52,971 nucleotides of DNA from an uncultured Hyphomicrobiales bacterium (GTDB lineage Bacteria > Pseudomonadota > Alphaproteobacteria > Rhizobiales > Beijerinckiaceae), in contig CAIZEI010000003.1 in assembly GCA_903931945.1 (NCBI GenBank), positions 1-52,971 of the forward strand. The letters run 5' to 3'. Numbering within the stretch: the stretch's first letter is position 1; each line of letters starts with the position of its first letter. Under the pieces are notes generated by a model. The model worked only from the letters and a program-made list of their open reading frames with translations, did not search any database and had not been told where the DNA came from. This document shows, in pieces, positions 12,951-39,358 of the stretch. Both the position numbers and the translations under genes were made by a program.

Positions 12951-13871
12951 ATGTTCAATCGTCGCGAGTTTTTGGCCGGCGCAACAGGCGCCGGCGCGCT
13001 GGCCGCTTTGCCGGCCCTGGCCCAGACGGGCGCCAAAAAACGTGTGATTGTCGATGCTCAAATTCATATGTGGAAAGCAAACACGCCCGATCGCCCGTGG
13101 GTTCCTGGCACACGCCCGCAAATTCCTGAGCCTATGACGATCGAGCGCGTTGTGCCGATGCTGGACGAAGCGGGCGTTGACCGGGTTGTCATCGTGCCGC
13201 CAACGCTGGAAGGCGAGCGCTACGACTACGGACAGGAGGCCGCGCGGCGATTCCCCGGTCGTTTCGCCACGATGGGACATATCCGGCTTGAAGACCCCAA
13301 TGAGGCCAAACGGGTCGCCACATGGCGCGATCAGCCAGCGCTGCTTGGCGTGCGTCTCAACATCGTCGGTGAGCAGGAGAAATGGCTACGCGATGGCACA
13401 GCAGACTGGTTCTGGGCGGCGGCAGAAAAATACAACGTGCCAGTCATGTTTCTGACGCGCGGACAATTGCCGCTGTTTGAACCTGTTGCAGCGCGATTCC
13501 CCGGCCTGAGCCTGATCATCGATCACATGGGCATATCCTCCGAAGCGCTGAAAGAGGGCCTTTTGACTGAGACAATCGACGCAGGCGTGAGTCTCGCGAA
13601 ATTCCCGAATGTCGCAGTCAAGCTCTCATCGACACCGCTGTTTTCGAAGGAGGCCTATCCCTGGCGCGATATGACGCCCTATATTCATCGCCTGTTTGAC
13701 GCCTTTGGTCCGAAACGCTGTTTCTGGGGAACGGACGTCACCAACTCCTACGCCAAGGCAAGTTACATGCAGCGCGTGACGCATTTCACCGAGGAACTCC
13801 CGTTCCTGACGGAGGAAGACAAGGATTGTGTCATGGGCAAATCAATTCTTGAACGTCTCCGGTGGACGTGA
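12951..13871 (+). CDS. Tat-exported amidohydrolase (amidohydrolase-2 family)
   Basis: A 306-residue TIM-barrel hydrolase of the PF04909/COG3618 type, related to LigI-like lactonases. It begins with a twin-arginine leader (NRREFL at residues 3-8, then a hydrophobic stretch ending ALA), so it should be folded before export to the periplasm. The usual HxH after the first strand reads DAQIH, with Gln37 in place of the first histidine. The C-terminal catalytic aspartate is present in FWGTD. The ATG at 12951 is preferred over an upstream in-frame start at 12879, because GGGAGGAGAGG lies just before it and the leader begins there. It is first in a three-gene unit with a binding protein and a di-haem cytochrome. 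The substrate is unknown. Confidence 0.82.
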   Translation: MFNRREFLAGATGAGALAALPALAQTGAKKRVIVDAQIHMWKANTPDRPWVPGTRPQIPEPMTIERVVPMLDEAGVDRVVIVPPTLEGERYDYGQEAARRFPGRFATMGHIRLEDPNEAKRVATWRDQPALLGVRLNIVGEQEKWLRDGTADWFWAAAEKYNVPVMFLTRGQLPLFEPVAARFPGLSLIIDHMGISSEALKEGLLTETIDAGVSLAKFPNVAVKLSSTPLFSKEAYPWRDMTPYIHRLFDAFGPKRCFWGTDVTNSYAKASYMQRVTHFTEELPFLTEEDKDCVMGKSILERLRWT

Positions 13872-13940
13872 AGCGTGGCGCGATTCGCGAATGACTTGAA
13901 ATGTCATATCGAGTTGATGAATTTCCCTGGGGAGACTTGG

Positions 13941-14975
13941 ATGCTCAAATTCCTTGCCCGGCTTGTGGCCCTGGCGCTTCTGGCGCAAGTACCGTTTGCC
14001 CGCGCGCAGACTGACCCTGCCGCCTATTATAAAGCCCATACCGTCCGCTTCATTTCCGGCGGGGGACCTGGCGGCGGCTACGATAATTACGCGCGTCTGT
14101 TGGCGCCGCATCTGGCGATTGCCATGGGCGCAAACGTTGTTGTCGAAAACCAGCCGGCGGCAGGCGGCCTTGTCGGTCTCAACCGCATCTACGCCAACGA
14201 GCCTGACGGACTGCAATTCATTATCATGAATGGCGGCGGCGCCGTCATGTCGCAACTCTTCGATCTGCCGACAGTGCAATACGATCTTGCCAGGGTGAAT
14301 TTTCTGGCAACCGTAAGTTCATCGCCCTGGATCGTGCTCGTCAATCCGAAGTCGCCCTTTCTCACAATGGCGGATCTTGTGCGCTCCGGCGCCACAATTC
14401 GCTGGCCGGCGACCGGGCCTATCGATGGCCTCTCCGATGGCGCCTCAATGCTGTGTGAGGCGTACGAAATGAAATGCCGCGTCGTGCTCGGATACAAATC
14501 GAGCAGCGAAGGCGCGCTGGCGGTTGAACGCGGCGAAATGGATGCGCTTTATGTATCCGACACATCGGCGAACAGTTATATCAAAAATGGCGAGGCGCGC
14601 GCCATAGCCGTCATCTCGCGCGAACGATCGCGTTTCCTGCCTGATATGCCGACCATTTTCGAACAGGGCGGGCTGACGGATTCGCAAAAATGGTGGCTTG
14701 ATTTGCGCGCTGACGTCGATGCGCTTGGCCGCATCATCATCGCGGGCCCCAATGTCAATCCCGAGCGTATGGCTTATTTGCAGGGGATGATGAAAACGAT
14801 CGCCACGGACCCCGCCATCCGCGGGGAAGGCGATCGCCTTGAGCGCTATCTTGATTTCCAGTCCCCGGAAGCGACGCGCGATCGTGCGCTGGGTCTCATC
14901 AACGGCGTCACGGGCGAGCGCAAGGCAAACATGAAAAATGTCGTGATGAAGAAGTACCTGCCTGGTGCGAATTGA
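13941..14975 (+). CDS. Tripartite tricarboxylate transporter (Bug/TctC-like) binding protein 1
   Basis: A 344-residue periplasmic binding protein with a signal peptide (residues 1 to about 23, cut near ARAQ). The first lobe has the TTT-family pattern VRFISGGGPGGGYDNYARLLAPHL followed by VVENQPAAGG. Members bind carboxylates; the ligand here is unknown. The ATG at 13941 has GGGGAG about 6 bases upstream; the longer in-frame reading from 13875 adds a non-signal stretch and is rejected. The gene sits 69 bases after the amidohydrolase. No TctA or TctB membrane gene is nearby. Three more relatives occur in the window. Confidence 0.87.
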   Translation: MLKFLARLVALALLAQVPFARAQTDPAAYYKAHTVRFISGGGPGGGYDNYARLLAPHLAIAMGANVVVENQPAAGGLVGLNRIYANEPDGLQFIIMNGGGAVMSQLFDLPTVQYDLARVNFLATVSSSPWIVLVNPKSPFLTMADLVRSGATIRWPATGPIDGLSDGASMLCEAYEMKCRVVLGYKSSSEGALAVERGEMDALYVSDTSANSYIKNGEARAIAVISRERSRFLPDMPTIFEQGGLTDSQKWWLDLRADVDALGRIIIAGPNVNPERMAYLQGMMKTIATDPAIRGEGDRLERYLDFQSPEATRDRALGLINGVTGERKANMKNVVMKKYLPGAN

Positions 14976-15018: not shown

Positions 15019-16338
15019 ATGCTTCGGCAGGTGTGCGTTGTTGCGTGTGCGATCGTCGCCACAGGTTGCCTCCCGGCAACGGCTGCCGAGCCTTCGCCTG
15101 ACCTTTCGCATCCCGTTACTCCGGACGAACGCCGGCTTTTGTCCGGCGATCTTCTGGGCAAACGCCTCTTTGAGGACACGCGGTTGTCAGAGCCACAGGG
15201 CGTTTCCTGCGCATCCTGTCACGATCCCTCCTCGGCCTATAGGGGGAACAATCGTTCGCCAGTCGCAGCGGTCGCCGCTGGCGCGCGTCCGGGAATTCTC
15301 GGCAATCGCAAAACGCCCTCCGTGCTTTATATGGCCTATAGCCCGCCATTCGATTTCATAATGATGAAAAGCGATATCACGGGCGTTCCAGAGATAACCC
15401 CGGTTGGCGGACAGTTCTGGGATGGCCGCGCGGTCGACCTCTCACGACAAGTCGAAGGACCGCTGCTCAACCCGCGAGAGATGAACAATCCATCGATACA
15501 GGCGGTCGTCAACAAAGTGCGGAACGGACCCTATGCGGACCTCGCACGGGAAGTTTATGGCACGGATTTTTTCGACGATCCTGGCGCATTTTCAAAGCTT
15601 TCCTCGGCCATTGCGTCGTATGAGGCAAGCGCCCGCTTCAAGCCCTTTTCATCGAAATTCGATGCCTGGCTCGAAGGCGAAACCAATCTAACCGACCAGG
15701 AGTTTCGCGGCTTCCAGAGCTTTATCGATCCCAAGAAGGGCAATTGCCTCTCCTGTCATGAAGGAGGGCATATCAACGAGGCCATGGAAAACGAGGGCCC
15801 GCCGACCTTGCCGCAAGCGGAACTGTCCCGGAACCCGAAAAACTGGATTTTTACGGACTTTACGTACGACACGCTTGGCGCGCCCCGCAACATGGCGATT
15901 CCCGATAATGCAAACCCAGACTATTTCGACCTCGGATTGTGTCGACGACCGGGACTGTCTGAGGTTGCGCCCAAGGATTTCGATCGCGAAACCCTGTGTG
16001 GCGCATTCAAGACGCCAAGTCTGCGCAATGTCGCGCTCAACGCGCCCTATATGCACAACGGCGTTTTTAAAACGCTGCGCGACGCCGTTGCTTTCTACTT
16101 CACGCGCGATACCAATCCTGAGCGCTGGTACCCTAGAACGCCTGATGGTTTGGTGCTTAAATTCAATGACTTGCCTGAAAAATACCGCAGCAATGTGAAT
16201 GTCAGACAGGTCCCGTACGATCGCCGGCCCGGCGAGAGCCCGCGCGCAACGGATGCTGAAATTGATGATATCGTCGCATTTCTGCAAACCCTGACGGACC
16301 GGAGCTTCGGCCCCCCGGCTGCGCAGGTCCTGAAATAA
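15019..16338 (+). CDS. Di-haem cytochrome c peroxidase / MauG-like protein
   Basis: A 439-residue periplasmic protein with a signal peptide ending near residue 23 and two c-type haem motifs, CASCH at residues 64-68 and CLSCH at 243-247. The layout and the late FKTPSLRNVALNAPYMHNG stretch are those of the CcpA/MauG superfamily. Members either reduce hydrogen peroxide or oxidise proteins or small molecules. A Cys17 in VATGC is a weak lipobox alternative. The ATG at 15019 lies inside the signal-peptide frame; the upstream reading to 14965 overlaps the binding-protein gene. It is last in the unit, followed by a hairpin terminator. Confidence 0.86.
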   Translation: MLRQVCVVACAIVATGCLPATAAEPSPDLSHPVTPDERRLLSGDLLGKRLFEDTRLSEPQGVSCASCHDPSSAYRGNNRSPVAAVAAGARPGILGNRKTPSVLYMAYSPPFDFIMMKSDITGVPEITPVGGQFWDGRAVDLSRQVEGPLLNPREMNNPSIQAVVNKVRNGPYADLAREVYGTDFFDDPGAFSKLSSAIASYEASARFKPFSSKFDAWLEGETNLTDQEFRGFQSFIDPKKGNCLSCHEGGHINEAMENEGPPTLPQAELSRNPKNWIFTDFTYDTLGAPRNMAIPDNANPDYFDLGLCRRPGLSEVAPKDFDRETLCGAFKTPSLRNVALNAPYMHNGVFKTLRDAVAFYFTRDTNPERWYPRTPDGLVLKFNDLPEKYRSNVNVRQVPYDRRPGESPRATDAEIDDIVAFLQTLTDRSFGPPAAQVLK

Positions 16339-16359: not shown

Positions 16360-16369
16360 TATCGCGCGC

Positions 16370-17821
16370 CTATCGCTTCATGAAATGTCCGAATTTTTTC
16401 ATGGCGCGCGCGACCGCGTCTGGGTCCGGCAGGCAGAGTTTGGGGAACTGATCTTTCCAGTGAAACGGCTTGCAGGCGTCGATGATGACGCGCGAATTGG
16501 TGAAATCGCCGGCCTTCTTTCGCTCGGGTGGAATGCGCGGATCGAGCGCCGTGCTCCAGGCATTGGTGATGAAATCCATCGAGGTCGCTGGGTCTGACCG
16601 AAAGACCATTGCTCCGATGAGATCGCCGAGGTCGCTGACATCCACATCCTCATCGGTGACCACAACATATTTTCCGGCATAGGCGCCCGCTGCGCATTGC
16701 GCGGCGATATGGCCCGCCTGCTTTGCGTGGCCTGCGTATCGCTGGCGGATGGAGACGCCCACCAGCATACGCGCGCCGCCAACTTCATGCGCCCAGACGC
16801 CAGTGACGTCGGGAACCCCGGCCTTCTGCATATCTTCACGAATGAGCGCAGAGCGCAGAATTGCGCGCGAACGCGAACTCTCGCCTGGAGGCCGTTGCGG
16901 CGGGCAGCCCACAAGAATGGGATCGTTGCGATGATAAATCGCCTTGATATCGAGCGCCGGCGCATCGTCGCCCGGGCTGCCATAATAGCCCGTCCATTCG
17001 CCGAACGGACCTTCGGGCCGCGCGGCGCCGGGTTGAACGAATCCTTCGATGACGATTTCAGCATCGGCAGGAAACGGCAGGCCGGTATTCCGGCCTTTCA
17101 CCACTTTCAACGGACGGTCGCGATAGGCGCCGATGATGTCATATTCGCACGTGCCAGAAGGAATTGCGCTGCACGCGATGAGAAACGTCAGGGGGTCGAC
17201 GCCCAGCACCATGGCGACCGGCATGGGCTCGTTGCGCTCGGCGTATTTGTCTCGGTGGATGCGGCCATGCTTGCCCGGCGAGATGTAAAACCCCAGCGAA
17301 TGTGAATCGTGGATCATGATGCGATAGGTTCCTGCATTGATCCATTTGTCCTCCGGGTCCATTGTCACGTTGAACGAGCCTGTGCCGATGTATCGCCCGC
17401 CATCGCCGGGATGCCAGAATGGCGTCGGAAATTTCAACGCGTCTGCCTCCGCGCCCTCCAGAATATTCTCATAAATCGCGCCGTCATTGACGAGTTCACA
17501 GGGTACGCGTCTGGATTTGGCGTCGCGGTATTCGTCGAGAAAAACCGAGGAAAGTTCGACCTTCGAAAGCTCCGGCGAAAACCCGAGAATGACATTCTGC
17601 CGCTTGCCGCCAAAGGCGTTGACAAGCACGCGATGGCCTTTGGGATAGCCGGGAATCTCATCGAACAGGAGCGCCGGCGCATGTTCATCATGTTGCGCAA
17701 CATCGGTGAGCGCGCCAATCTCCTCCTCGCAATTGGCGCCGGAAATTTTACGCAACTCGCCCATTCCCTCGATGATGGCCAGAAAGTCGCGCAGGTTGTC
17801 GTAGGGCACATTGCGTTTCAT
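16370..17821 (-). CDS. UbiD-family prenylated-FMN decarboxylase
   Basis: A 483-residue member of the UbiD family, which adds or removes CO2 on aromatic or unsaturated acids using prenylated FMN. The NAGTYRIMIHDSHSLGFY stretch contains the conserved Asn/Arg of the cofactor site. RPEGPFGEWTGYYG carries the catalytic glutamates. The start at 17821 gives an ATGA overlap with the preceding monooxygenase stop, so the two are coupled; an in-frame upstream start at 17869 is rejected. No UbiX flavin prenyltransferase is in the window. UbiD in ubiquinone synthesis is possible, but the catabolic neighbours favour decarboxylation of a ring acid. Confidence 0.88.
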   Translation of the reverse strand: MKRNVPYDNLRDFLAIIEGMGELRKISGANCEEEIGALTDVAQHDEHAPALLFDEIPGYPKGHRVLVNAFGGKRQNVILGFSPELSKVELSSVFLDEYRDAKSRRVPCELVNDGAIYENILEGAEADALKFPTPFWHPGDGGRYIGTGSFNVTMDPEDKWINAGTYRIMIHDSHSLGFYISPGKHGRIHRDKYAERNEPMPVAMVLGVDPLTFLIACSAIPSGTCEYDIIGAYRDRPLKVVKGRNTGLPFPADAEIVIEGFVQPGAARPEGPFGEWTGYYGSPGDDAPALDIKAIYHRNDPILVGCPPQRPPGESSRSRAILRSALIREDMQKAGVPDVTGVWAHEVGGARMLVGVSIRQRYAGHAKQAGHIAAQCAAGAYAGKYVVVTDEDVDVSDLGDLIGAMVFRSDPATSMDFITNAWSTALDPRIPPERKKAGDFTNSRVIIDACKPFHWKDQFPKLCLPDPDAVARAMKKFGHFMKR

Positions 17822-19005
17822 GGGGCCGATCTTTCGGGTTCCTGCGTCGCGTCGAATTCGAATATCCACGAGCGATCAAGCGGCGGCGCAGGCGGCCATT
17901 CGCGCGTGCGGCGAAAATTCTCGCGACTTTGCAGCGTGATTTGCGCCGTGCGCGGCTGCCGTTCAGCCACATATTGCGTCAGCGCGGTTGAGACATCCTC
18001 TTCATACCGATCAAGTGCGCGGGCCAGCACATAACCATCTTCAATCGCCATATTTGCGCCCTGAGCAAGATTGGGCATGGTGGGATGCGCTGCGTCTCCA
18101 AGCAGGGTCACGCGCCCTACAGTCCAGTGCTTCCGGGGATCGCGGTCGAAAATGCCCCATTTGTAGCAATCGCCGGACTCCGCGAACATACCCAGCAAGG
18201 CCTCGTTCCACCCGGCGTAGGCGGCGACAAGTTCTTCGCTTGAACTGGGCGTCGACCAGGATTCCTCAACCCATTTATCACTCACGTGGCCGGCGAAAAT
18301 GTTCAATCGTGAGCCATCGCCGAGCGGATAGCAGATGACCTGGCCTGCCGGTCCGTACCAGGAGAGATGATCGCCGGGTGTGAGCGTGATCGACCCTCCT
18401 GGCCCAACTCTGGCAGGCAACTTCGACATGGGTAGAATGCATCGCCAGCACATCGAGTTGGTAAATCGGGGCTTATCCGCGCCGAAAAGGACTTCTCGCA
18501 CGATCGAACGAATGCCGTCAGCGCCAACTACAATATCCGCTTCGATTTCTCCACCGCCGACAAACCGCGCGTAGCCTGCGCCGCCACGCGCGCCAACCGA
18601 GACGCAATGCTGACCCAGATGTATGTTGCATTCAGGCAGGCCTTCCTGCAGCATCGCGTGCAGATCCGCCCTGTGCGCCGTCATATATCGTCCGCCGAAA
18701 CGGGCGATGTCTTCGCCGTTCATCGCGCCACGGCCGCGCAGACTGGCGTCATTCCAGTTCAGCACAATGCGACTTTTGGGTTCGAACGCCGCGTTTCGCA
18801 AAGAGTGCTCAAGCCCCAGCGCCCTCAGAACTTTGTAGGCGTTGGGACCAATCTGCAACCCGGCGCCGACTTCGCCAAGCGATTGCGCGCGCTCGTAAAT
18901 ATCGACCTCAAACCCGCGTTGGCGCAGGGCGCGCATTGCCGTAAGACCACCGATGCCAGAGCCAATAATTGCGACTTTAAGTTTGCGACGCAACGTCATG
19001 TGCAT
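17818..19005 (-). CDS. FAD-dependent aromatic monooxygenase (salicylate hydroxylase type)
   Basis: A 395-residue group A flavoprotein hydroxylase. It has the three expected motifs: GSGIGG near residue 16 for the FAD ADP part, the DG motif in VVGADGIRS, and GDAAHPTMPNLAQGANMAIED for the ribityl/flavin site. Relatives hydroxylate, sometimes with decarboxylation, substrates such as salicylate, 3-hydroxybenzoate or 6-hydroxynicotinate; the substrate here is open. The ATG at 19005 directly follows the stop of the upstream binding-protein gene (no gap), and its own stop overlaps the UbiD start. An internal ATG at 18999 is an alternative. Confidence 0.9.
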   Translation of the reverse strand: MHMTLRRKLKVAIIGSGIGGLTAMRALRQRGFEVDIYERAQSLGEVGAGLQIGPNAYKVLRALGLEHSLRNAAFEPKSRIVLNWNDASLRGRGAMNGEDIARFGGRYMTAHRADLHAMLQEGLPECNIHLGQHCVSVGARGGAGYARFVGGGEIEADIVVGADGIRSIVREVLFGADKPRFTNSMCWRCILPMSKLPARVGPGGSITLTPGDHLSWYGPAGQVICYPLGDGSRLNIFAGHVSDKWVEESWSTPSSSEELVAAYAGWNEALLGMFAESGDCYKWGIFDRDPRKHWTVGRVTLLGDAAHPTMPNLAQGANMAIEDGYVLARALDRYEEDVSTALTQYVAERQPRTAQITLQSRENFRRTREWPPAPPLDRSWIFEFDATQEPERSAP

Positions 19006-20025
19006 TTAATCCGGAGGTTGCGCGACTTCGCGAAGCCTTGCCAGTGCTTCCGGCGACGCGGCGCTTGCGGCCGACACCATTGCAGTGAGTTCGGCGCCCT
19101 TTAATGGCTCTACAAAGATCCCGAGTTTTTCTGCCTCTTCGACAAAATCAGGGTCTGCAATCATCGCATCGAAGGCTTTGCGCAGGATTGCGACTCGATC
19201 GCCAGGCACATCGGGCGGCGCCATTAACATCTGCCCGATATCGGTTGAGCTGCCGAGCATCGCCATCACCTCCCGGTCAAGCGGGCCGGACGCCAGTTCA
19301 ACGATCGCGGGCGTATCAGGCGCATATTTAACGCGCTTCAGGGCGATCGTATAAAGCAGCGACATCAAATGGTCGCGCAGCCATTCTGGGCGCGCCAGCG
19401 CATCGGCGAGACTGACGCTTCCGATGCCCATGACCTCGCCACGCTCCATCGCGACAAATTGCGGTCGAACCGACTCATAGCCGCGAATGACTTTCAGCCT
19501 GGTTCCTGCCATTTTATTGAGCGCCCAGGGAACAATTGCAGCAAGTCCCGCCGCGCCGCTGGCGCTGACCGCAAATTCGCGTTTTTGCGCATCCTCGAGT
19601 GTGTTCAGACCTGCAGCAGTCCAGCCGATGCCGATCAGCGTGGCGGGTTGAATGCGGCCGATCCAGGAAAATCGCTCGGGAAGATATTTGGCTTTGGGAT
19701 CGAGACTTTTGTTCAGAACAATTCCGGGTTGCACTGTGCCAAGAGTCAGGCCGTCGCGTGGCGCTACATTGTAAAGATATTCTGCCGCGACAACGCTTGA
19801 AGCGCCTGGCATGTTGCGCGGCAGGATCGTGGGATTGCCCGGGATATACGTCTTGAGATAACGCGCCATCAGACGCCCGCCCATATCATAGCCGCCCGCC
19901 TCGCCTGAACCGATGATCAGGGAAATCGTTTTGCCTGCGTAAAAATCCGTTGTTTGCGCAAGCGCGGTCACTGCCGTGAAAGCCGATGCGATCAGAACTG
20001 TCAGGATCGAAATCTGCGTGTTCAC
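19006..20025 (-). CDS. Tripartite tricarboxylate transporter (Bug/TctC-like) binding protein 2
   Basis: A 339-residue periplasmic binding protein with a signal peptide cut near TALAQ. The first lobe reads DFYAGKTISLIIGSGEAGGYDMGGRLMARYL, then PRNMPGASS and AAEYLYN, the TTT subfamily pattern shared with the copies at 22377 and 26478. The start is GTG at 20025, overlapping the stop of the upstream gene (GTGA), so it is translationally coupled to it. The next gene, the monooxygenase, starts right after its stop. This tight packing suggests that its ligand is the substrate of the monooxygenase/UbiD pair. No membrane subunits are present. Confidence 0.86.
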   Translation of the reverse strand: MNTQISILTVLIASAFTAVTALAQTTDFYAGKTISLIIGSGEAGGYDMGGRLMARYLKTYIPGNPTILPRNMPGASSVVAAEYLYNVAPRDGLTLGTVQPGIVLNKSLDPKAKYLPERFSWIGRIQPATLIGIGWTAAGLNTLEDAQKREFAVSASGAAGLAAIVPWALNKMAGTRLKVIRGYESVRPQFVAMERGEVMGIGSVSLADALARPEWLRDHLMSLLYTIALKRVKYAPDTPAIVELASGPLDREVMAMLGSSTDIGQMLMAPPDVPGDRVAILRKAFDAMIADPDFVEEAEKLGIFVEPLKGAELTAMVSAASAASPEALARLREVAQPPD

Positions 20026-21101
20026 TGAAAAATCTCGCGAATCATCGCCGCAGACGTTGGCGTGTATTTTACCAGCGCGTCGGGGGATACAAACTGTTCA
20101 TGGGTCGTAGCAAGCGCGTCGGTTATGGGTGAAAGCGCTGGCGATGACGGCGTATCGACCCGAGTTGGAAAATAGTCGGCCTTTGCGAGAATGGCCTGTC
20201 CTTCGGCGGAAAGAATAAAATCAGCCAGCAATAACGCGGCATTGGGATGATGCACGCCTTTGGGGACGATCATGGTGCCCACAGTGGTCGCCACAGGCTC
20301 CATCAGCGCTGGCAGGGCAGGCGCGCCTTTTGCATGGCTGATGAGCGGGTGATGCGCAAAAATATTCAGTGCAATTGCATATTCGCCGGCTATGACTCGA
20401 TCCACCAGCGCGCGCGCGCTGGCGCCGGAAATGCTGACCGGCTTTTGCTGCGCGAGTTGCATCAGATAAGTCCGCGCCCTTTCCTCGCCCCAGCTGAGTC
20501 GCAGATTGGTGACAAACAAATCTGCGCCGCTGGAACTGCCAATATGCCAGGCAATTCGGCCTTTCCATCTGGGATCGAGCAGGTCCTCATAGCGCTTCGG
20601 CGTCGCTTCGGGAGCGACCAGCCGGGTATTATAAGCGGCGGAGAAAAAGCTGCGCCGCGTAGCGGTCCAGACGCCATTGGCGTCACGATAGATGGATGGA
20701 ATGGCGTCAACTTCTGGCGTGAAATAGGGTTCAGCGAGACCGGCTTCAACCGCAACTTCCCCGACGCCGGTTCCCTCGACAAGGTCAGCCACGAGATTTC
20801 CGGCGCGCGATTCCGCCGATAATTTTGCAAAAATTCCGGCAGATTCCGCCCGCCAGTAGCTCATTTTCAGAAAGGGATATTTGCGTCCAAACGCTTCGGC
20901 AATCGGGCGTTGGGTCTGGTTGACAATCATTGACGAATAGAGCGTGACCTCGCCTTCACGTCGCGCGCCTTCGATCAACCGCTCCTGTCGATCGCCGCCA
21001 TTGTAGAGCAACGCGCTGTCCTCCGCGCGGGCGACCCCTGCGCCGATGAGCGCCGCCCCATGACCGATGGCCAACGCAAGGGCAATCTTCAAGGTCCCCA
21101 T
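20022..21101 (-). CDS. Extracellular solute-binding protein, Fe3+/polyamine ABC type
   Basis: A 359-residue protein with a signal peptide ending near VARAED. The body follows the FbpA/PotD-like pattern: EGEVTLYSSM near the N-terminus, GNLVADLVEG, YNTRLVAPEATPKRYEDLLDPRWKGRI, and a C-terminal HPNAALLLADFILSAEGQ. Such proteins bind ferric iron, polyamines or organic acids. No permease or ATPase accompanies it. The ATG at 21101 begins a proper signal peptide; the frame is open to 21794, but that part is antisense to the bicupin gene and is rejected. It is the first gene of the minus-strand unit leading to UbiD. Confidence 0.83.
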   Translation of the reverse strand: MGTLKIALALAIGHGAALIGAGVARAEDSALLYNGGDRQERLIEGARREGEVTLYSSMIVNQTQRPIAEAFGRKYPFLKMSYWRAESAGIFAKLSAESRAGNLVADLVEGTGVGEVAVEAGLAEPYFTPEVDAIPSIYRDANGVWTATRRSFFSAAYNTRLVAPEATPKRYEDLLDPRWKGRIAWHIGSSSGADLFVTNLRLSWGEERARTYLMQLAQQKPVSISGASARALVDRVIAGEYAIALNIFAHHPLISHAKGAPALPALMEPVATTVGTMIVPKGVHHPNAALLLADFILSAEGQAILAKADYFPTRVDTPSSPALSPITDALATTHEQFVSPDALVKYTPTSAAMIREIFQ

Positions 21102-31409: not shown

Positions 31410-32548
31410 GCGAACGTCCGATGGTGGAAATGGACATAGCTGCGCGGCGCGCGCGCGTTCAGGCGTTGATGCGCCAACGTGGCATTGGCGTTGTGATTAT
31501 CTATTTTGGCGGCCAGCACTACATGTTGCGGATGAACCAATTGATGTATCTGACAGACTTTAAGGCGCTCGGTCCGGCAGCGTTGATTATGCCGTTGGAA
31601 GGAGAGCCAACGTTGGTCCTGACCCCGCAATGGGATCTCCCGCGGGCGAAAGATGAATGCGTCGGCGTTGCCAAAATAGTGTCGGTGTCGCCGGGAGAAC
31701 TGGCGACAGCAATTTCCTTGTACACCAAAACATATCGGGGCGCTGTGGCGCTCGCGGGGCGAGAAGATCTGACGGTTCATGCAGCGCGTGCGCTCTACGG
31801 CGCGCTGGGCGCGGAGCCACGTGACGCCGAGACCCTCGTGTCGTCGCTTGCTGTGGCGCGTACGCCGATCGAACTCGCGCGTGTTGCATATGCCGCCACA
31901 ATTGCGGATGCCGGTTTTGAAGCGCTCTGCGCTCGGGCTCGCGTGGGGATGTGGGAATACGAGCTTGCCGCAGAAGTTGAAGCGGCAATGCAGGCCCTGG
32001 GCTCGGACGACAATTATGGATTGATCGGCGCCGGGCCGCACAATCAGGCCATCCGCGCGCCGACCAATCGCCGGCTTGAAAAAGGCGATTTGATCGTTGG
32101 GGAAATCACGCCCTGCTATCGTGGCTATTTCGCGCAATTGTGTCGCACCTATGTTCTGGGGGAACCCAGCGACCTCCAGCGCGCAAAATATGACATGTTA
32201 ATCGCGGCGCAGGACGCGGGTTTTTCCGTGGCGTATTCAGGCGCGCCCAGCAGCGGTATCGCGCGCGCCATTAATGACGTGATCTCTGCCCAGGGTTATG
32301 GGGAATATTGCAGACAGCCGTATATGCGCACGCGTGGACATGGGCTCGGTTTTGGAGGCGTGGTTCCCTATGATGTAACGGAAAGCGCAAGCCCTGTTCT
32401 CGAAACCAATATGACCATGATCATCCATCCCAATCAGTACATCCCGGAAACCGGATATATGATGTTGGGCGATACTGTCGCGATCGAGCCAGAAGGACCC
32501 CGCATATTGACGAAAACGGCGCGCCGCCTTTTTTCGGGGAATGCCTGA
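31406..32548 (+). CDS. M24 (pita-bread fold) protein 1, metal site mostly replaced
   Basis: A 380-residue member of the creatinase/aminopeptidase P superfamily: an N-terminal creatinase-type domain to about residue 150, then a pita-bread domain. Of the five canonical metal ligands (Asp, Asp, His, Glu, Glu) only the histidine is kept, as His312 in RGHGLG. The others align with Glu233, Gln244, His341 and Gly355. It may be a metal-free hydrolase in the manner of creatinase, though creatinase's own residues are not clearly kept. It is coupled to HyuB by an ATGA overlap and overlaps the next M24 gene by eight bases. Confidence 0.82.
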   Translation: MSERPMVEMDIAARRARVQALMRQRGIGVVIIYFGGQHYMLRMNQLMYLTDFKALGPAALIMPLEGEPTLVLTPQWDLPRAKDECVGVAKIVSVSPGELATAISLYTKTYRGAVALAGREDLTVHAARALYGALGAEPRDAETLVSSLAVARTPIELARVAYAATIADAGFEALCARARVGMWEYELAAEVEAAMQALGSDDNYGLIGAGPHNQAIRAPTNRRLEKGDLIVGEITPCYRGYFAQLCRTYVLGEPSDLQRAKYDMLIAAQDAGFSVAYSGAPSSGIARAINDVISAQGYGEYCRQPYMRTRGHGLGFGGVVPYDVTESASPVLETNMTMIIHPNQYIPETGYMMLGDTVAIEPEGPRILTKTARRLFSGNA

Positions 32549-33719
32549 CATGCGCACGATGCACCCCGTACTGAAGCGCGGCGGTCTTTATTGGGATCAA
32601 AGCCTCCTGCCGCCCGAGGCCTACAAGGAGCGTTTCGCGCGTATTCAATCGGCGATTGTCGAGAGCGGCGATGACGCCTGGCTATTTTACGGCGATGTCG
32701 AGCGCTACGGCGCTGTTGCATGGTTCAGCAATTTTCTGCCCCGCACGCGTGCCGCGCTGGCCTTTGTGCCGCGTGAAGGCGAACCTGTTTTATTGCTGGC
32801 GGTTGGTCTGCGAGATGTGCCAGCGGCAAAAACGCTGACATGGGTCGATGATGTCCGTCCTTACAGCAACCTGCCGCGCAGCCTTGCTGCTCTGATCGAG
32901 GAAAAGGGGCTGGCCAAAGGGCGCATAGGGCTTGCCGGAGTCGAAGAGCTTCTGCCGGTCAAGCACTGGAATGATTTCAACGCGGCTATGCCTGGGCTGA
33001 AGTTGGCAGATCGCGCGCAGAACCTTGCGCCGTTGCGCGCCAGAAAGGCCGCCTGCGAAATAGCAGCCATCCGCGCCGCCGCCACAATTGTGCGCCGCGC
33101 GCTTGACAATATCGGCGCAGAAATCCGGGCTGGCCGGAAAATGCGGGAAGTGACTGCAGTGATTGACCGGCAATGCCGTGTCGCCGCTGCAGAGGATGTG
33201 CGGGTCATGGTCGCCAGTGGAGAACAGACCGGCCAATCGCTTCGGCCCGGCGACGATCGCATGTTACAGAATGGCGATGTCATACAGATTTACCTTGCCG
33301 TCGAAGCGCAGCGCTATTGGGCCGAAGGCGCCCGAACTTTTGTGATCGGGAAAGCTGGCGACGCGATCCGCGCAGCTCATGCGCGCGCAAACGCTGCGAT
33401 GCGCGTGATGCAAATGGCTTTTCGATCTGAGGTTACGGGCTCTGAAATCGCTTCGGCGGGACTTGCCACACTTGGCGATGCTGAACTCATGAAAAGCGCA
33501 GGCGGTTACGGCCTCGGTAATGGCGTCGGGCTTGACGCCGATGAGTTTCCCCGGATCGAAGTGGGCAGCCCGGATATGATCGCCGATCATTCGACGCTGG
33601 CGCTGCGCCTTATCGGACATGCTAACGGGACAGGAATCGCTTTGGCTGAAACGCTCCTGTGGAGCGGAGGCAAGGTTGAAAGCCTGACTGGCGCAACAAC
33701 GTTGACCGAATGCAATTAA
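32541..33719 (+). CDS. M24 (pita-bread fold) protein 2, all metal ligands replaced
   Basis: A 392-residue second M24-family protein. The fold is recognisable from RKAACEIAAIRAAATIVRRAL, GDVIQIYLAVEAQRYWAEGARTF and GNGVGLDADEFP. By my alignment the five metal-ligand positions read Tyr251, Glu262, Asn327, Arg356 and Ala369, so it is very unlikely to be a metallopeptidase. The reading frame is intact and tightly placed, so it is not a decayed gene. It may pair with the M24 protein before it as a heteromer. Starts at 32541 and 32550 are both possible. Confidence 0.8.
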   Translation: MPDMRTMHPVLKRGGLYWDQSLLPPEAYKERFARIQSAIVESGDDAWLFYGDVERYGAVAWFSNFLPRTRAALAFVPREGEPVLLLAVGLRDVPAAKTLTWVDDVRPYSNLPRSLAALIEEKGLAKGRIGLAGVEELLPVKHWNDFNAAMPGLKLADRAQNLAPLRARKAACEIAAIRAAATIVRRALDNIGAEIRAGRKMREVTAVIDRQCRVAAAEDVRVMVASGEQTGQSLRPGDDRMLQNGDVIQIYLAVEAQRYWAEGARTFVIGKAGDAIRAAHARANAAMRVMQMAFRSEVTGSEIASAGLATLGDAELMKSAGGYGLGNGVGLDADEFPRIEVGSPDMIADHSTLALRLIGHANGTGIALAETLLWSGGKVESLTGATTLTECN

Positions 33720-33748
33720 GTCCCTCCATACGGAGACGGAAGTCGCAC

Positions 33749-34750
33749 ATGGATTACAAATCCGGCTTGACGCGCAGGGCCTTCACCGCCGGCGCCGCAG
33801 TCAGTTTGATGACCGCAAAGGCGCGTATGGCAAACGCTGCGATCGGGCCGCTTGAAACAACAAAGCTTCGATTCGGTCTCCCAGTCCCCGGTTCAAGTTT
33901 TCTGCCAATTTACGTTGCAGCGGAAAAGACCTGGAAAGCAAGCGGTCTCGACATAGAGATGGTGAGCTTTCGTGGCGATGCGGAGGTCGCGCAGGCGCTT
34001 GCGGCCGGCTCGATTGACGTCAGTTGCCAGTCGCTCGACGGCTTGATCAATCTCATATTGGCGGAGCAACCCGTCATTGGTTTCTACGCCGGCTTTTATC
34101 AGGCGGATTTTGCCTGGGCTGCGCAACCGGCGATCAAAAAATGGTCCGATCTGAAAGGCAAGTTGCTCGGAGTCTCGACCTTTGGCTCGCTGACCGATGA
34201 GCTTACACGCTACGTTCTGATCAAGAACGGGCTGGATCCCTCGCGCGATGTCAAGATTATTCAGTCCGGACCGGCGCCGGGCCGGATGCAGGCGTTAAAA
34301 TCCGGAAGGCTCGACTGCGCAATTATGTCTCCGCCGGACAAATGGGTTGCAGAGGAATCGGGCATGACCATGCTTGGCGCACAATCGATCGACGTGGCAC
34401 CTGAATGGCCCAAACATGCCTTCCTTGCCCCTTCGAAGTTTCTTGACGCGAATCCCAACGTTATCAAAGCGTTTTTGCGCGCACATGTTCAATCCATCCG
34501 ATATGCGCGGGCGAATCCGGACGAAGCCGCTCGCATACTATCGGCAGCGCTTAAATTCCCTGCGCGTTATGCGGACAAGGCCTATCGCGAAGTCATTGAT
34601 GGATACAATGAACGCGGTGAGTTGCCTGTTGCTTCGATGGATGTGTACTGGAACATCCTGATCGAGGGGGGCGTTGTAAAAACAGCGATACCGAAAGATC
34701 GCCTGATCGATCGTCGCTTTATCGAAACCTTCGATGATTGGGCGCCATGA
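33749..34750 (+). CDS. NMT1/SsuA-type ABC transporter substrate-binding protein
   Basis: A 333-residue binding protein with a twin-arginine-like leader (LTRRAF at about residues 7-12, hydrophobic stretch ending MANA). The body [35 protein letters not shown] and [18 protein letters not shown] is typical of the NMT1/taurine/nitrate binding-protein family. The ATG at 33749 has GGAGACGGA upstream; the earlier frame opening at 33710 overlaps the M24 gene end. It is followed directly by the ATPase and two permeases, making a full importer. Such importers take up sulfonates, pyrimidine precursors, cyanate or aromatic acids; the ligand here is unknown. Confidence 0.87.
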
Positions 34751-34766
34751 CATCGAATCTTTGCCA

Positions 34767-35576
34767 ATGACCCAGCTCGTCGTCGAAAACCTGAGGCTGG
34801 AATATCCCGCCGCACGGGGAGGGAAGCCGTATCTCGCGTTGAGCGAGGCCAATCTTGCGGTCGAAAGTGGTGAGTTTGTCACCATTGTCGGCCCCTCTGG
34901 CTGCGGCAAGAGCACACTTCTGATGTTGATTGCATCCCTGCTCCGCGCCACAAATGGCACTGTGAAGCTGAATGGAAAGGAAGTGGCGGCGCCGGGGCCT
35001 GACCGTGCTCTGGTGTTTCAGGACTTTGCGTTATTGCCCTGGCGAACAGTCCTCAAAAACGTCGAGATCGGCCTCGAATTGCAACGGGTTCCGGTGGCGC
35101 GCCGTCGCGATATTGCGCGTAAGTATATCGAAATGGTGGGATTGAGCGCCTTCGAAATGCACTATCCGCACCAGTTGTCTGGAGGAATGCGGCAGCGGGT
35201 GGGCATCGCGCGCGCACTCAGCGTCGATCCTGAAGTACTTTTGATGGACGAACCTTTTGGCGCGTTGGACGCGCAAATCCGGCAGGTCATGGGCCTGGAA
35301 TTACTGCACATCTGGGAGCGCGACCGTAAGACGATTCTGTTTGTCACGCATGATATCGACGAAGCCATCTATCTGGCTGACCGGATTGTCGTGATGAGCG
35401 CATCGCCAGGTCGCGTAATCCGCGAAATCAAGGTCGAACTGCCGCGACCGCGCGGGCTTGCCATCCGGACGTCTCCCGAATTCAACATCTATCGCGAAAC
35501 ACTCTGGAATCTGCTGGAAGAGCAGGTTCGCGCATCCGGTTCATGGGCGGCTGCAAAAGCGACCGGGGACCGGTGA
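34767..35576 (+). CDS. ABC transporter ATP-binding protein (SsuB/TauB type)
   Basis: A 269-residue ATPase of the nitrate/sulfonate/taurine importer group. Walker A is GPSGCGKST, the Q-loop is in [11 protein letters not shown], the signature is LSGGMRQR, Walker B with D-loop is [11 protein letters not shown], and the switch histidine is in FVTHD. I chose the ATG at 34767, where the family N-terminus begins; the in-frame ATG at 34734 would overlap the binding-protein stop by 17 bases. Neither has a strong ribosome site. The first permease starts one base after its stop codon. Confidence 0.92.
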
Positions 35577-35577
35577 G

Positions 35578-36378
35578 ATGGCGATCAACGCGTCGAAATC
35601 CCTGGGTGACAGGCTGTCCGAAGCGCCGAACGCTCGCACGTGGATCGGCGGCGTTAGCGTGGTCTTGTTTCTGGCGGCATGGCAAGTGATCGGCGCCAAT
35701 GAAATTGTGCGATCCGATCTCATTTCCTATCCAGGCGAAATCGCTGCCGCGGCGTACGATCTGGCGTCGTCGGGAGAACTGGGGGCCAACGCCCTGACAA
35801 CCCTGCGCGAGTTTGCTCAGGGTTTTGCGCCTGCGATCCTCGCTGGAATCTTGCTGGGATTGGGTTTTGCCTTGAGTCGGTTGGCGCGTTCGCTCTTCGA
35901 GCCATTGTTTGTCGCTATGTACACCGCCCCGCTGATCGCCTTCGTTCCACTGTTGGTTGTATGGTTTGGCGTGGGATCGACGTCGAAGGCGGTGACAACA
36001 TTTCTGGCGGCCGTTGTCCCCATCGCGATCAACACGACGACAGGCGTGCGCGAGACACAGGAAAGCTGGGTCCGCGCGCTGCGGGCTTTCGGAGCAACGC
36101 GTGGGCAAATTATCGTAAAGGCCATTTTGCCGGGCGCAATGCCCATCATCATGGCGGGGCTCCGACTCGCCATCGGGCGCGCAATTGTCGGGGTGATCGC
36201 CGCAGAAATGTACGTCTCGACTTCAGGCGTTGGACGCATGATCCAGACATACAGCACGGCTGGCCGGGCGGCCGAAATTTTTGTGCTGGTAGGAGAGGTG
36301 TCCGGTTTTGGATTTATGTGCGTCTGGTTGTTGCGCCGTCTTGAAAACCGCCTCGCGCCCTGGCGAGCGCGCGCATGA
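35578..36378 (+). CDS. ABC transporter permease 1 (SsuC/TauC type)
   Basis: A 266-residue inner-membrane permease with about six helices. The cytoplasmic coupling loop reads RAFGATRGQIIVKAILPGAMP, the usual EAA-loop region of this family, followed by GLRLAIGRAIVG. The ATG at 35578 comes right after the ATPase stop with GGTGAG before it; the upstream in-frame start at 35458 is inside the ATPase gene. The stop overlaps the second permease start (ATGA). With its partner it forms a heterodimeric channel. Confidence 0.91.
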   Translation: MAINASKSLGDRLSEAPNARTWIGGVSVVLFLAAWQVIGANEIVRSDLISYPGEIAAAAYDLASSGELGANALTTLREFAQGFAPAILAGILLGLGFALSRLARSLFEPLFVAMYTAPLIAFVPLLVVWFGVGSTSKAVTTFLAAVVPIAINTTTGVRETQESWVRALRAFGATRGQIIVKAILPGAMPIIMAGLRLAIGRAIVGVIAAEMYVSTSGVGRMIQTYSTAGRAAEIFVLVGEVSGFGFMCVWLLRRLENRLAPWRARA

Positions 36379-37133
36379 ACGAGAAATTCGCGCAAGTCGC
36401 GCTCGGCGCGCTCGGGTTCATTTTGCTGATTGGCGCGTGGGAATTGGCTGCGCGCAACGGGCTCGCAAATCCGGTGGTTGTCTCCAGCCCGGCGCGCATT
36501 GCAGCGGCCTTCGCGCGGCAATGGGCAAGCGGCGATTTGTTTGCCGACCTTGAAACCAGCGCAATCGAGTTTGCGATCGGCTATGGACTTGCCATCGTGG
36601 TGGGCGTTGTTCTCGGTCTTGCCATGGGTCTGAACCGTATCGCTGAATATTGCATCGATCCCTTTATTTGGTTCATCTATGCTTCCCCGCTGATTGCTTT
36701 CTATCCCCTGTTGATCGTCTGGCTTGGGTTTGGTTTTGTCACCGTAGTGACAGTGGCGTTCCTGCTGTCGTTTGTGTCGATTGCTATCAACGCTATGGCC
36801 GGCGTCCATGCGGTTGACGCCAGTCATATGCGCGCGGTTCTTGCTTTCGGGGGAACCCGGCGCGATGTCATTTTCAAGGTCATTTTGCCGTCTTCAGTCC
36901 CGCATATTCTTGCAGGCGCGCGGATCGGGCTCGGGCGGGCTTTGCATGGGGTTGTGCTGGGCGAAATGTTTGGATCGAACGATGGACTGGGCTATTCCAT
37001 CACGCGCTACGCCGCTCAACTCAAGACCGCCGACGTCTTTGTGCCGCTGCTGACTCTGATTGTGCTTGGAGTTGCAATCAACCAAGCGAGCGCTTTGCTG
37101 GAAGGCCGGCTTCAGTCATGGAAGCGCGCCTGA
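36375..37133 (+). CDS. ABC transporter permease 2 (SsuC/TauC type)
   Basis: A 252-residue second permease, similar in length and layout to the one before it. The EAA-type loop reads LAFGGTRRDVIFKVILPSSVP, followed by GARIGLGRALHGVVLGEMFG. Many SsuC/TauC importers use a homodimer; two different permease genes, as here, are found in a subset. Its start overlaps the previous stop by four bases. Its 3' end overlaps the converging reductase gene by 18 bases, leaving no room for a terminator between them. Confidence 0.91.
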   Translation: MNEKFAQVALGALGFILLIGAWELAARNGLANPVVVSSPARIAAAFARQWASGDLFADLETSAIEFAIGYGLAIVVGVVLGLAMGLNRIAEYCIDPFIWFIYASPLIAFYPLLIVWLGFGFVTVVTVAFLLSFVSIAINAMAGVHAVDASHMRAVLAFGGTRRDVIFKVILPSSVPHILAGARIGLGRALHGVVLGEMFGSNDGLGYSITRYAAQLKTADVFVPLLTLIVLGVAINQASALLEGRLQSWKRA

Positions 37134-38138
37134 ACTGGCGCCATTGGCGTTATCGCGGGTCATCCGCAGGGATCGATCAAGGCCGCGCAAGAGCGGCAGG
37201 ACAACATCGAGCACGGGCGTGGGGACGCCGCGCACGCGGCCAAATTCGCGGACCTGTCCGACGATGCCATCGACTTCGAGCGCGCGGCCTGCGTCAACAT
37301 CCTGTAGCATAGATGAACGCCCTGCGGAGCGTCCCCCCGCTGGACGGACGATCTTTTCCGGATCGATTTCACTGCGCAGATCCCGTCCCATCGCCGCAGC
37401 CACCGTCATAGCCTCGTCAATTGCTTTGATGGCGATCTCGTCGAGGCCGTGAACCTCAGCGGCGTCCCGCGAGGGCAGGCGCGTAAGAGCGGCAAATGGA
37501 TTCGAACTGATATTCACAAATATCTTGCGCCAGATATCGCCCCTGATGTCCTTCGAGACTTTGGCGTTGAGCCCTGTGCGGCTGAGCAGGTCTACAACCG
37601 CATTGGCGCGGGCCGAAGGCGACCCATCGGGTTCGCCGATCATCCATCGGTTGCCGCCGGTATTGAGGATAACGCCCGGCGCAATCACTTGATTCGACGA
37701 ATTAACAACGCCGCCCAAAGCTCGGTGGCCACCGACTTCACGCCAGAGCGCGCCTTCCGGATCGAGCAGGGGTAGCGGCTCATCGCAGCCGGCGCCAAAA
37801 TTCCACCACCATGGAATGCCATTCATCAAAAAGGTAGCAATGCCACGCGCGCCGAGCAAACGGGCGAGCGGCTTGGCGATCTCTGGCAGCGACGGGGCTT
37901 TCAACGTGACGAGCACAATATCTTGCTCGGGGAGCGCAGTGGGATCGTCCGTCGCCAAATGGGGCCGACCGCCAATCACGTCGTCTCCTGCACGAAGGAA
38001 AATGCCATTATCCCGAATGGCGGCGAGATGCGCGCCGCGCGCGATGATCGAAACGTCATGGCCTCCCGTCGCAATCAGGCGCGCCGCCAGATGTCCTCCG
38101 ATCGCGCCTGCGCCGTAAATACAAATTTTCTTTGCCAT
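37116..38138 (-). CDS. Ketopantoate reductase family (2-dehydropantoate 2-reductase-like)
   Basis: A 340-residue NAD(P)H-dependent reductase of the ApbA/PanE family. The cofactor loop GAGAIGG is at residues 9-15, and the catalytic lysine region reads DIRGDIWRKIFVNISSNPF. True PanE makes pantoate for coenzyme A, but many paralogues in catabolic clusters reduce other 2-oxo acids. Here the location next to a transporter and far from panB/panC suggests the latter. It is divergent from the LVIVD gene (92 bases) and converges on permease 2. Confidence 0.82.
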   Translation of the reverse strand: MAKKICIYGAGAIGGHLAARLIATGGHDVSIIARGAHLAAIRDNGIFLRAGDDVIGGRPHLATDDPTALPEQDIVLVTLKAPSLPEIAKPLARLLGARGIATFLMNGIPWWWNFGAGCDEPLPLLDPEGALWREVGGHRALGGVVNSSNQVIAPGVILNTGGNRWMIGEPDGSPSARANAVVDLLSRTGLNAKVSKDIRGDIWRKIFVNISSNPFAALTRLPSRDAAEVHGLDEIAIKAIDEAMTVAAAMGRDLRSEIDPEKIVRPAGGRSAGRSSMLQDVDAGRALEVDGIVGQVREFGRVRGVPTPVLDVVLPLLRGLDRSLRMTRDNANGASSGALP

Positions 38139-38230
38139 TGAATCGTTCCCGGTCTGGCGTCCACACGCGATTCATGCTGATTTTGACCGAACATGCAATT
38201 GTCAATGCGTGTCGATACCGGGAGGATGAT

Positions 38231-39358
38231 TTGAGCGAAGCCATGGGCGTCAGGGAAGTCGGCTATTTCGACAATATTGGCGGCGGTCAGATCACCGTTG
38301 AGAATGGCTTTGCCTATATTGGCCACATGAAGGCCCCGGATGGCACGAGCATTGTGGACGTTCGCGATCCGAAAAATCCCAAACTCGCAGCCACCGTTCA
38401 AATACCTGCGCATATCCATTCGCACAAAGTGCGCGTCGGGAATGGGTTGATGCTCGTCAACCATGAAATCATGTCTGACACAATCGATCCCAACGCCTGT
38501 TCTGGCGGCGGCCTTGGCATTTATGACAATACCAATCCATTTCAGCCCAAACTCATCCATGAATGGGAAGCGCCCGGAAAGGGTGTGCATCGCTTCGATT
38601 TTGACGGGCGCTATTTCTACGGGTCGGCGACGCAGGCGGGTTATCATGGCACCATCGTGATGATTCTCGATCTCATCGATCCGGCAAAACCGCGTGAAGT
38701 CGGTCGCTGGCATATGCCCGGCCAATGGCTCGCCGGCGGAGAAAAGCCAACCTGGGGCGCAATCGACGATCACCGGTGTCACCATCCCTTGCGGTTTGGC
38801 GACCGGCTATTCACCAGCTACTGGCATGGCGGGTTTGTGATTCTCGACATTTCGGACATGTCGAACCCAAAATATATCTCCGGATTGAACTGGAGCCCAC
38901 CATTTGCTTGCCCAACCCACAGCGCGGTGCTTGTTCCATTTCCGCTTCATGGGCGCCGCGTGATGCTCGTGGCGGACGAAGACGTCGCGAAGATCGGTTC
39001 GGGACCGCCTGCGTTTCTCTGGCTTGTGGACATCACAGATGAGACGAGGCCGATTCCCTTCTCAAGCTTCCAGCTCGACCATCTCGGCGACAAGGAGGCG
39101 CCGCCGATGACAGGTTGTCATCAGACAGTTGAGAAGATCGCCAGCACGGAGGTGCCAGTCGCCTGGTTTGCCAATGGGTTGCGCATTGTCGATATTTCAA
39201 AACCGCATGCTCCAAAGGAAGTCGCGCATTACCTGCCCGACGTCCCGCAGGGGTCGCGGCGCGTATCGAGCAATGATGTCTTTGTAGATGATCGCGGCTT
39301 GATCTATTTGCTCGACCGCGTGCGAGGGCTGCATATTCTGGAGCGGGTCAAGGACTAG
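38231..39358 (+). CDS. LVIVD-repeat beta-propeller protein
   Basis: A 375-residue protein built of LVIVD-type repeats, seen as DVRDPKNPKLAATV, DLIDPAKPREVGRW, LDISDMSNPKYIS, VDITDETRPIPFS and VDISKPHAPKEVAHY. This suggests a propeller of six or seven blades. No signal peptide is evident. Histidine-rich loops (IPAHIHSHK, DDHRCHHP, YWHGG) may bind a metal. The preferred start is TTG at 38231, because GGAGG lies five bases upstream; the ATG at 38243 is an alternative, and the longer frame from 38132 overlaps the divergent reductase gene. The function is unknown. Confidence 0.75.
   Translation: MSEAMGVREVGYFDNIGGGQITVENGFAYIGHMKAPDGTSIVDVRDPKNPKLAATVQIPAHIHSHKVRVGNGLMLVNHEIMSDTIDPNACSGGGLGIYDNTNPFQPKLIHEWEAPGKGVHRFDFDGRYFYGSATQAGYHGTIVMILDLIDPAKPREVGRWHMPGQWLAGGEKPTWGAIDDHRCHHPLRFGDRLFTSYWHGGFVILDISDMSNPKYISGLNWSPPFACPTHSAVLVPFPLHGRRVMLVADEDVAKIGSGPPAFLWLVDITDETRPIPFSSFQLDHLGDKEAPPMTGCHQTVEKIASTEVPVAWFANGLRIVDISKPHAPKEVAHYLPDVPQGSRRVSSNDVFVDDRGLIYLLDRVRGLHILERVKD

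Follow-up and report, generated by a model that had tools for sequence, protein, structure and literature searches.

The 52,971-base contig C3 of an uncultured Hyphomicrobiales bacterium (the window) carries, at positions 12951-39358, an island of catabolic and uptake genes that includes HyuA, HyuB and two proteins of the M24 fold, M24a and M24b. We put at about even chances the reading that this island is a patchwork in which two or more independent catabolic modules adjoin some loose genes, and that the HyuA-HyuB-M24a-M24b core works as a unit. From gene content, gene order, the split of the island in the closest genome compared, the recurrence of the four genes and their residue changes, all of which were observed directly, we infer a substrate class, a catalytic route and an M24 heterodimer. 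Because its metal-binding residues are not the ones present in the relatives used for comparison, the four-gene set probably performs a degradation step without an earlier description. The families involved are known, and the fixed four-gene set with its paired residue changes appears to be new. A search of the open-access PMC literature, with subscription papers outside its range, found no description of HyuAB with M24 partners.

The window belongs to a metagenome-assembled genome (MAG) of 5.03 Mb in 203 contigs (98.5% complete, 4.8% contaminated). The Pfam scan covered 30 open reading frames (ORFs) of the window, from 11623 to 46234, with smaller or other frames outside it; the NCBIfam scan covered 20 window ORFs, and PDB searches were made for selected proteins.

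Residue changes in HyuB and the M24 pair

HyuA (27589-29640, plus strand; PF01968, 1.6e-94) is the ATP-binding subunit of an oxoprolinase/hydantoinase/caprolactamase-family enzyme. This family is hard to annotate because its members open lactams, hydantoins or oxoproline, or carboxylate ketones. The phosphate-site residues Asp8 and Asp283, equivalent to Asp11 and Asp295 of CapA, are present, and Asp occupied both positions in every copy that was readable at both. HyuB (29637-31409, plus strand; PF02538, 1e-141) has Asp44, His104, Asn107 and His129 at the metal positions, that is, Asp-His-Asn-His rather than the Asp-His-Asp-His tetrad. Asn107 lies at the position of CapB Asp102, a metal-binding residue reported to be conserved and essential in caprolactamase. 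The window proteins therefore share the two-subunit architecture, the ATP-site Asp residues and three of the four metal ligands with CapAB of Pseudomonas jessenii and with hydantoinase HyuAB, but differ from them in this Asn, in the adjoining M24 pair and in their scores against the CapA and CapB profiles, which are the nearest to them (521.9 and 255.9 bits) but have an NCBIfam cut-off of 1000 each, far above these values.

M24a (31406-32548, plus strand), a creatinase/EutD-like protein, has the pita-bread fold of the M24 metallopeptidases but lacks their five-ligand D,D,H,E,E set. In an alignment to prolidase 1pv9, M24a has E233, Q244, H312, H341 and G355 in the five columns that we take to be the M24 metal ligands, where 1pv9 has D,D,H,E,E; four of the five are changed. 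These columns were invariant in an 11-sequence alignment and read E,Q,H,H,G in all 50 places of a census made up of 45 places in the genus (E <= 1e-50 to M24a), second places in loci L247 and L248, and one place each on contig C6 of the same MAG, in a further alphaproteobacterial MAG (L007) and in Neorhizobium galegae. The reference letters come solely from the PDB alignment, and among the fetched loci there was no M24 protein with the usual D,D,H,E,E to serve as a control. M24b (32541-33719, plus strand; PF00557, 1e-18) is a degenerate M24 protein and the presumed partner of M24a. Of the 50 M24a places, 48 have an M24b match on the same strand no more than 1.5 kb away. In the 16 aligned rows, one of which (L202) was cut after the second position, no row has more than a single prolidase letter out of the five (second-position Asp in two, third-position His in four).

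In 42 of the 50 places, M24a has a same-strand HyuB no further than 5 kb away, and the residue at the Asp102 position was Asn in all 39 that could be read. The census copies are related by descent; these counts measure conservation and co-occurrence, not independent events. Nine HyuB loci had no M24a in view, and there the residue was Asp in seven, Asn in one and His in one. This set excludes a locus (L120) whose M24a lies just beyond the stretch and is seen in L239, and in one of the seven Asp loci (L189) the contig ends on the side expected for M24a. In the MAG itself, all four M24a places at 1e-65 (C3, C145, C91 and C6) have an Asn HyuB, and four of the six other HyuA places have Asp. The Asn copy on C171 (L242) and the His copy on C21 (L243), with no M24 match in their stretches, are also from this genome and are possibly intermediates or enzymes of other specificities. 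In five places that are not evidently near the end of a contig (L251, L252, L263 and one of the places in each of L247 and L248), M24a has no same-strand HyuB within 5 kb; an M24b match accompanies it in four of them.

The structural model of M24a (pLDDT 83.6, pTM 0.85; below 50 at 303-311 and 313-323) matched EutD (36.6), creatinase (36.5) and prolidase (36.0) in a tie. A Glu-His-His site for a single metal could be made by E233, H312 and H341, or the site may hold no metal. The creatinase/EutD M24 hydrolases are metal-free. EutD/DoeA and creatinase share the M24 fold with M24a at 18-21% identity, whereas M24a has HyuAB and a degenerate second M24 protein as neighbours. EutD works with the deacetylase EutE, according to a passage of PMC8739950.

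The HyuA-HyuB-M24a-M24b set recurs in the genus, in L007 and in N. galegae. On plasmid pHAMBI540a of N. galegae HAMBI 540 (L219), counterparts of HyuA (48%), HyuB (49%), M24a (37%) and M24b (25%) are followed by MmgE/PrpD and then by an NMT1-type protein (35%), an ATPase (55%), two permeases and an amidohydrolase (64% identical to its L006 counterpart). N. galegae VafX2 has the same module genes downstream of a LysR gene; in that record (L218, CP090555.1) HyuB and M24a are each annotated in two pieces, and both are whole in HAMBI 540. MmgE/PrpD and the L006-type amidohydrolase, whose PDB-nearest group includes ACMSD and resorcylate decarboxylase, recur near the module within the genus too. Among 72,556 plasmid records, M24a matched three at 1e-40, all of them from N. 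galegae. Searches for M24a in samples of the order, class and phylum at 1e-80, 1e-75 and 1e-65 gave only the MAG itself (1/397, 1/385 and 1/398), although relatives can be missed because these were even samples with at most five candidates scored per genome.

Neighbourhoods of the island genes in relatives

In the initial annotation, the 26 kb was described as a single locus of about 21 accessory genes that import and degrade an aromatic or N-heterocyclic carboxylate. The Pfam, NCBIfam and PDB scans agree with its content and coordinates, but 23 genes lie between a 3-hydroxyacyl-CoA dehydrogenase gene (end 12504) and PrmC (start 39387); a racemase-superfamily gene, a ketopantoate-reductase-like gene and an LVIVD-repeat gene had gone unnamed. 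Twelve of the 23 (23544-37133, intergenic gaps of -17 to 76 bases) make up module C, in the order AGrac-Pht5L-CupB-TctL13-HyuA-HyuB-M24a-M24b-NMT1-ABC-permease-permease. Module B consists of the bicupin gene CupA and, divergent from it, SBP7-TctL6-FMO-UbiD.

Comparison of neighbourhoods did not support the idea of one pathway. In G544, the closest genome compared (copies 68-89% identical), TctC1, CupA, TctL6, FMO and UbiD are on contig C59 (L195), and TctL9, AGrac, Pht5L, TctL13, HyuA, HyuB, M24a, M24b, NMT1, the ATPase and the permeases are on contig C93 (L179, L214). Both blocks sit well within their contigs; CupB and SBP7 had no match in either. Because the modules are on separate contigs in G544, we rejected a single 26-kb pathway. 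UbiD orthologues of 77-79% in five more genomes (G552, G569, G554, G546 and G548) have other neighbours, mostly TctC-like, two of these contigs (L196 and L197, in G552 and G569) being shorter than 7 kb. Neither UbiD nor the FAD hydroxylase was in view at seven further close HyuAB-M24 copies (L202-L207 and L007, of which L202 and L206 are short contigs). TctL13 adjoins the module in six of eight other close copies (L179 and L203-L207); it does not in L007, and L202 is truncated. For module B, G544 is so far the one other case of synteny.

The scan for CupB in named genomes gave 28 loci, all compared with the window proteins, from Hyphomicrobiales/Rhizobiales and other Alphaproteobacteria. CupB adjoins HyuA-HyuB-M24a-M24b in six of them (L002-L007, with only M24a-M24b visible before the contig end in L005). 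Relatives of UbiD (27-43%) were present in eight (L009, L010, L012, L016-L018, L020 and L021), Pht5-like relatives (32-52%) in six (L014, L016-L018, L026 and L027), and SBP7 relatives in L023 and L024 (58-59%) and L028 (25%); another eight had none of these partners (L001, L008, L011, L013, L015, L019, L022 and L025). Since the neighbours differ among the 28 loci, the bicupin joins different enzymes at different places. In L222, on a Phyllobacterium zundukense plasmid, a bicupin relative adjoins a TPP enzyme, EutA and two tripartite transporters, which suggests that some members of the family act on aliphatic compounds. Across 51 genomes of the genus, Pht5L relatives were found in 51 (1e-40), UbiD in 38 (1e-120) and M24a in 27 (1e-50).

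The flanks of the island are housekeeping-like by Pfam, with the dehydrogenase on the left and PrmC and HtpG on the right, and GC content is even across parts of the window (0.55-0.59). Insertion of the island into a conserved backbone was considered and rejected. A PrmC match at 1e-40 was present in 45 relatives, and in all 12 of these that were examined the PrmC-HtpG surroundings contained no match to a left-flank or island gene, AbcA-type ATPases at 32-43% excepted; the flanks thus mark a synteny break and not a clean insertion site. In the Pfam scan, no island ORF was assigned to a family of transcription regulators.

Predicted roles of modules B and C

In module C, AGrac (23544-24314, plus strand; PF01177, 5e-15 in a longer frame; 89% in G544) belongs to the Asp/Glu/hydantoin racemase superfamily, with weak PDB matches to hydantoin/allantoin racemase. 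It has Asn at the first of two positions that we take to be the catalytic Cys of hydantoin racemase (alignment to 2eq5) and Gly at the second (alignment extended by eye), as does the G544 copy. A classical hydantoin-racemase pathway was rejected because AGrac lacks these Cys residues. A purine/ureide pathway was also considered, which would have a urate hydroxylase-like FMO, an allantoin-racemase-like AGrac and an AllE-like bicupin. FMO is nearer to tropone 2-monooxygenase and 6-hydroxynicotinate 3-monooxygenase, and the bicupin model is nearest to gentisate/salicylate dioxygenase among the matches listed, in comparisons that included no search by name for ureidoglycine aminohydrolase. Pht5L (24345-25343, plus strand), a putative decarboxylase, resembles Pht5, the 4,5-dihydroxyphthalate decarboxylase, over its full length (residues 1-323 aligned to PDB 9jp7, E 6e-59); in contrast to the Pht5 setting, no phthalate dioxygenase gene was found among the window neighbours scanned. 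TctL13 (26478-27512, plus strand; PF03401, 1.3e-7) is a TctC-like binding protein, and the module ends with an ABC importer made up of an NMT1/THI5-type binding protein (33749-34750; PF09084, 7e-22; 79% in G544, 35% in Neorhizobium), an ATPase (34734-35576; PF00005, 5e-31; 85% and 55%, respectively) and two permeases (35578-36378 and 36375-37133; both PF00528), all on the plus strand.

Module C would import an N-containing ring compound and degrade it. HyuAB would use ATP to activate its cyclic substrate (amide, imide or hydantoin) and open it at the altered metal site. The M24a/M24b pair, with one catalytic and one degenerate subunit, may hydrolyse the opened product (an amide, ureido or amidino compound), acting like creatinase or ectoine hydrolase and standing in for the usual carbamoylase. 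Pht5L and CupB would be accessory steps that feed particular ring acids into the HyuAB-M24 core.

On the minus strand, module B encodes UbiD (16370-17821; PF01977, 6e-64; TIGR00148, 247.0 bits against a cut-off of 244.85; 89% in G544), the FAD-dependent hydroxylase FMO (17818-19005; PF01494), TctL6 (19006-20025; TctC-like, 76% in G544) and the SBP_bac_6-type binding protein SBP7 (20022-21101; PF13343, 7e-19 in a longer frame; no match in the G544 copy of the module). CupA (21240-22349, plus strand; PF07883 and alignment; 89% in G544, where it adjoins TctL6-FMO-UbiD) is divergent. In UbiD, Arg167, Glu270 and Glu275 were located by motif, and the Arg and both Glu, which we take to be the catalytic Glu-Arg-Glu residues, were invariant in 15 aligned sequences. 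The nearest PDB entry, 7pda (E 7e-105), is named only as a UbiD family decarboxylase, and a literature search on it found no paper. A 58% relative on plasmid 2 of Aromatoleum aromaticum EbN1 (L221) adjoins an ABC transporter, with a second UbiD and UbiX further upstream; this UbiX-UbiD-ABC-UbiD run is close to a UbiX-UbiD-CoA-transferase cluster. No flavin prenyltransferase (UbiX) was present among the island ORFs scanned; the rest of the genome was not searched for it. FMO is nearest to tropone 2-monooxygenase 8rqh (8e-65), followed by 6-hydroxynicotinate 3-monooxygenase. Entry 8rqh should be the TrlE enzyme of PMC11110157, a passage of which describes hydroxylation followed by decarboxylation. 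Module B, perhaps with TctC1, would thus handle an aromatic or heteroaromatic carboxylate, with decarboxylation, hydroxylation and, probably by CupA, ring cleavage presumably acting on one ring acid.

CupA and CupB (25381-26481, plus strand) have the bicupin fold of the gentisate/salicylate 1,2-dioxygenases and share with them a motif of three His and another His two positions further along. His240, His242 and His286 of the C-terminal cupin were present in 40 of 40 aligned bicupins; in the N-terminal cupin, the motif-1 HxH was found in none of the 40, and eight kept an HxH in the motif-2 stretch. The CupB model was most like gentisate/salicylate dioxygenases by VIA-align among the matches listed; its PDB sequence search gave only weak matches, and in its Foldseek ranking the places went to seed storage proteins, oxalate decarboxylases and quercetinases. 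Unlike the gentisate/salicylate dioxygenases, CupA and CupB have the three-His site in the C-terminal cupin; iron is in the N-terminal barrel of those enzymes and in both barrels of the Silicibacter gentisate dioxygenase, according to parts of PMC10306065 and PMC4019311. Homogentisate dioxygenase uses a 2-His-1-carboxylate site instead of the three His of CupA and CupB; like these, it has the metal site in the C-terminal cupin (PMC4019311).

Several genes fall outside this proposal, TctC1 perhaps excepted. AmdH2 (12951-13871, plus strand; PF04909, 1.8e-32) is an exported Amidohydro_2 protein with a Tat-like signal by eye; its sole PDB relative at 1e-4 is 4dlf (3e-8), and a 77% homologue lies near the HyuAB-M24 module in L002/L204. 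It is followed on the same strand by the TctC/Bug-type binding protein TctC1 (13941-14975; PF03401, 2.3e-22), whose 83% homologue adjoins CupA in G544, and by a MauG-like di-haem protein (15019-16338; PF03150, 7e-37; CxxCH twice). TctL9 (22377-23435, minus strand; 76% in G544, divergent from AGrac there) is TctC-like; both TctL6 and TctL9 had no Pfam match at 1e-4 and were assigned solely through BLAST clustering with TctL13. The minus-strand frames 20022-21794 (SBP7) and 22377-24725 (TctL9) each contain one gene and an upstream extension over plus-strand genes that looks spurious. At the right end are a ketopantoate-reductase-like dehydrogenase (37116-38138, minus strand; PF08546/PF02558; NF005089, 286.8 bits against a cut-off of 223) and an LVIVD-repeat protein (38174-39358, plus strand; PF08309, 1e-12), both unmatched in the G544 stretches examined. 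No TctA or TctB adjoined the TctC-like proteins of the window among the ORFs scanned.

Much of the initial annotation holds at the level of families. Its seven binding-protein folds correspond to TctC1, TctL6, SBP7, TctL9, TctL13, NMT1 and Pht5L, Pht5 being a protein of that fold, and its two prenyl-FMN or Pht5-like decarboxylases are UbiD and Pht5L. The two bicupins, the FAD hydroxylase, the MauG-like and Amidohydro_2 proteins, HyuA, HyuB and the two M24 proteins were likewise recovered. A role in taking up and breaking down small organic acids or N-heterocycles is supported, with the UbiD residues and the CupB model in agreement, and the gene combination is without a published match in the open-access literature. 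The altered metal-binding residues of HyuB and the M24 pair, and the C-terminal position of the bicupin site, had not been pointed out.

Competing explanations and significance

A specific form of the core proposal, which we rate somewhat short of even chances, is a four-protein system, new to the literature, in which the HyuB (Asp to Asn) and M24a sites changed together, M24a possibly having a mononuclear Glu-His-His site, and in which HyuAB passes an activated intermediate to an M24a/M24b heterodimer, so that a class of N-heterocycles would be opened and cleaved by new chemistry. Alternatively, all the genes could serve one pathway, with UbiD and Pht5L decarboxylating, the FAD enzyme hydroxylating, the bicupins opening the ring and HyuAB/M24 finishing an N-heterocyclic acid. 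The genes do lie together in the window, in two runs with gaps below 80 bases, and HyuA is within 12 kb of UbiD in 3 of its 10 places in the MAG (0.69 expected, P 0.03, uncorrected). This calculation assumed uniform placement, ignored contig breaks and was one of six tests over several pairs and distances (smallest P 0.028), so that the nearness is at best weakly above chance. Bicupin-UbiD nearness (3/17 within 12 kb, P 0.11) and HyuA-bicupin nearness (1/10) were not above chance, and with modules B and C on separate G544 contigs and close UbiD orthologues having other partners elsewhere, we regard a single pathway as unlikely.

A carboxylase role, in which HyuAB would carboxylate its substrate like acetophenone carboxylase and M24a/M24b would act on the carboxylated product with no ring opening, is quite improbable. 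HyuA matches acetophenone carboxylase profiles at 1e-98, and PMC8453981 describes caprolactamase measurements in the presence of bicarbonate and considers a carboxylated lactim; however, the caprolactamase profile is the best (522 versus 331 bits), and the Pfam-scanned neighbours include no further carboxylase subunit. Chance adjacency of expanded scavenging families (TctC, Pht5L, bicupin and UbiD), with no unit beyond pairs, would fit a 5.0-Mb genome with 133 TctC-family matches at 1e-3, 17 near-full-length bicupins (of 23 matches), 15 UbiD and 10 HyuA places. For the core of module C, this plain bloat is contradicted by recurrence of the set, with M24a-M24b pairs at 48 of 50 places, an Asn HyuB near 39 and a reach to Neorhizobium; for module B, the G544 copy stands against it. 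We consider it highly improbable.

For the HyuA/HyuB family, a HyuB group marked by one residue change and an adjoining M24 pair gives a sequence rule that is testable in the cultured N. galegae HAMBI 540. The four-protein system would provide a case of an M24-fold enzyme with a degenerate copy as its partner, and the island would add a gentisate-dioxygenase-like bicupin family, present in many copies in this genome, whose three-His site is in the other barrel.

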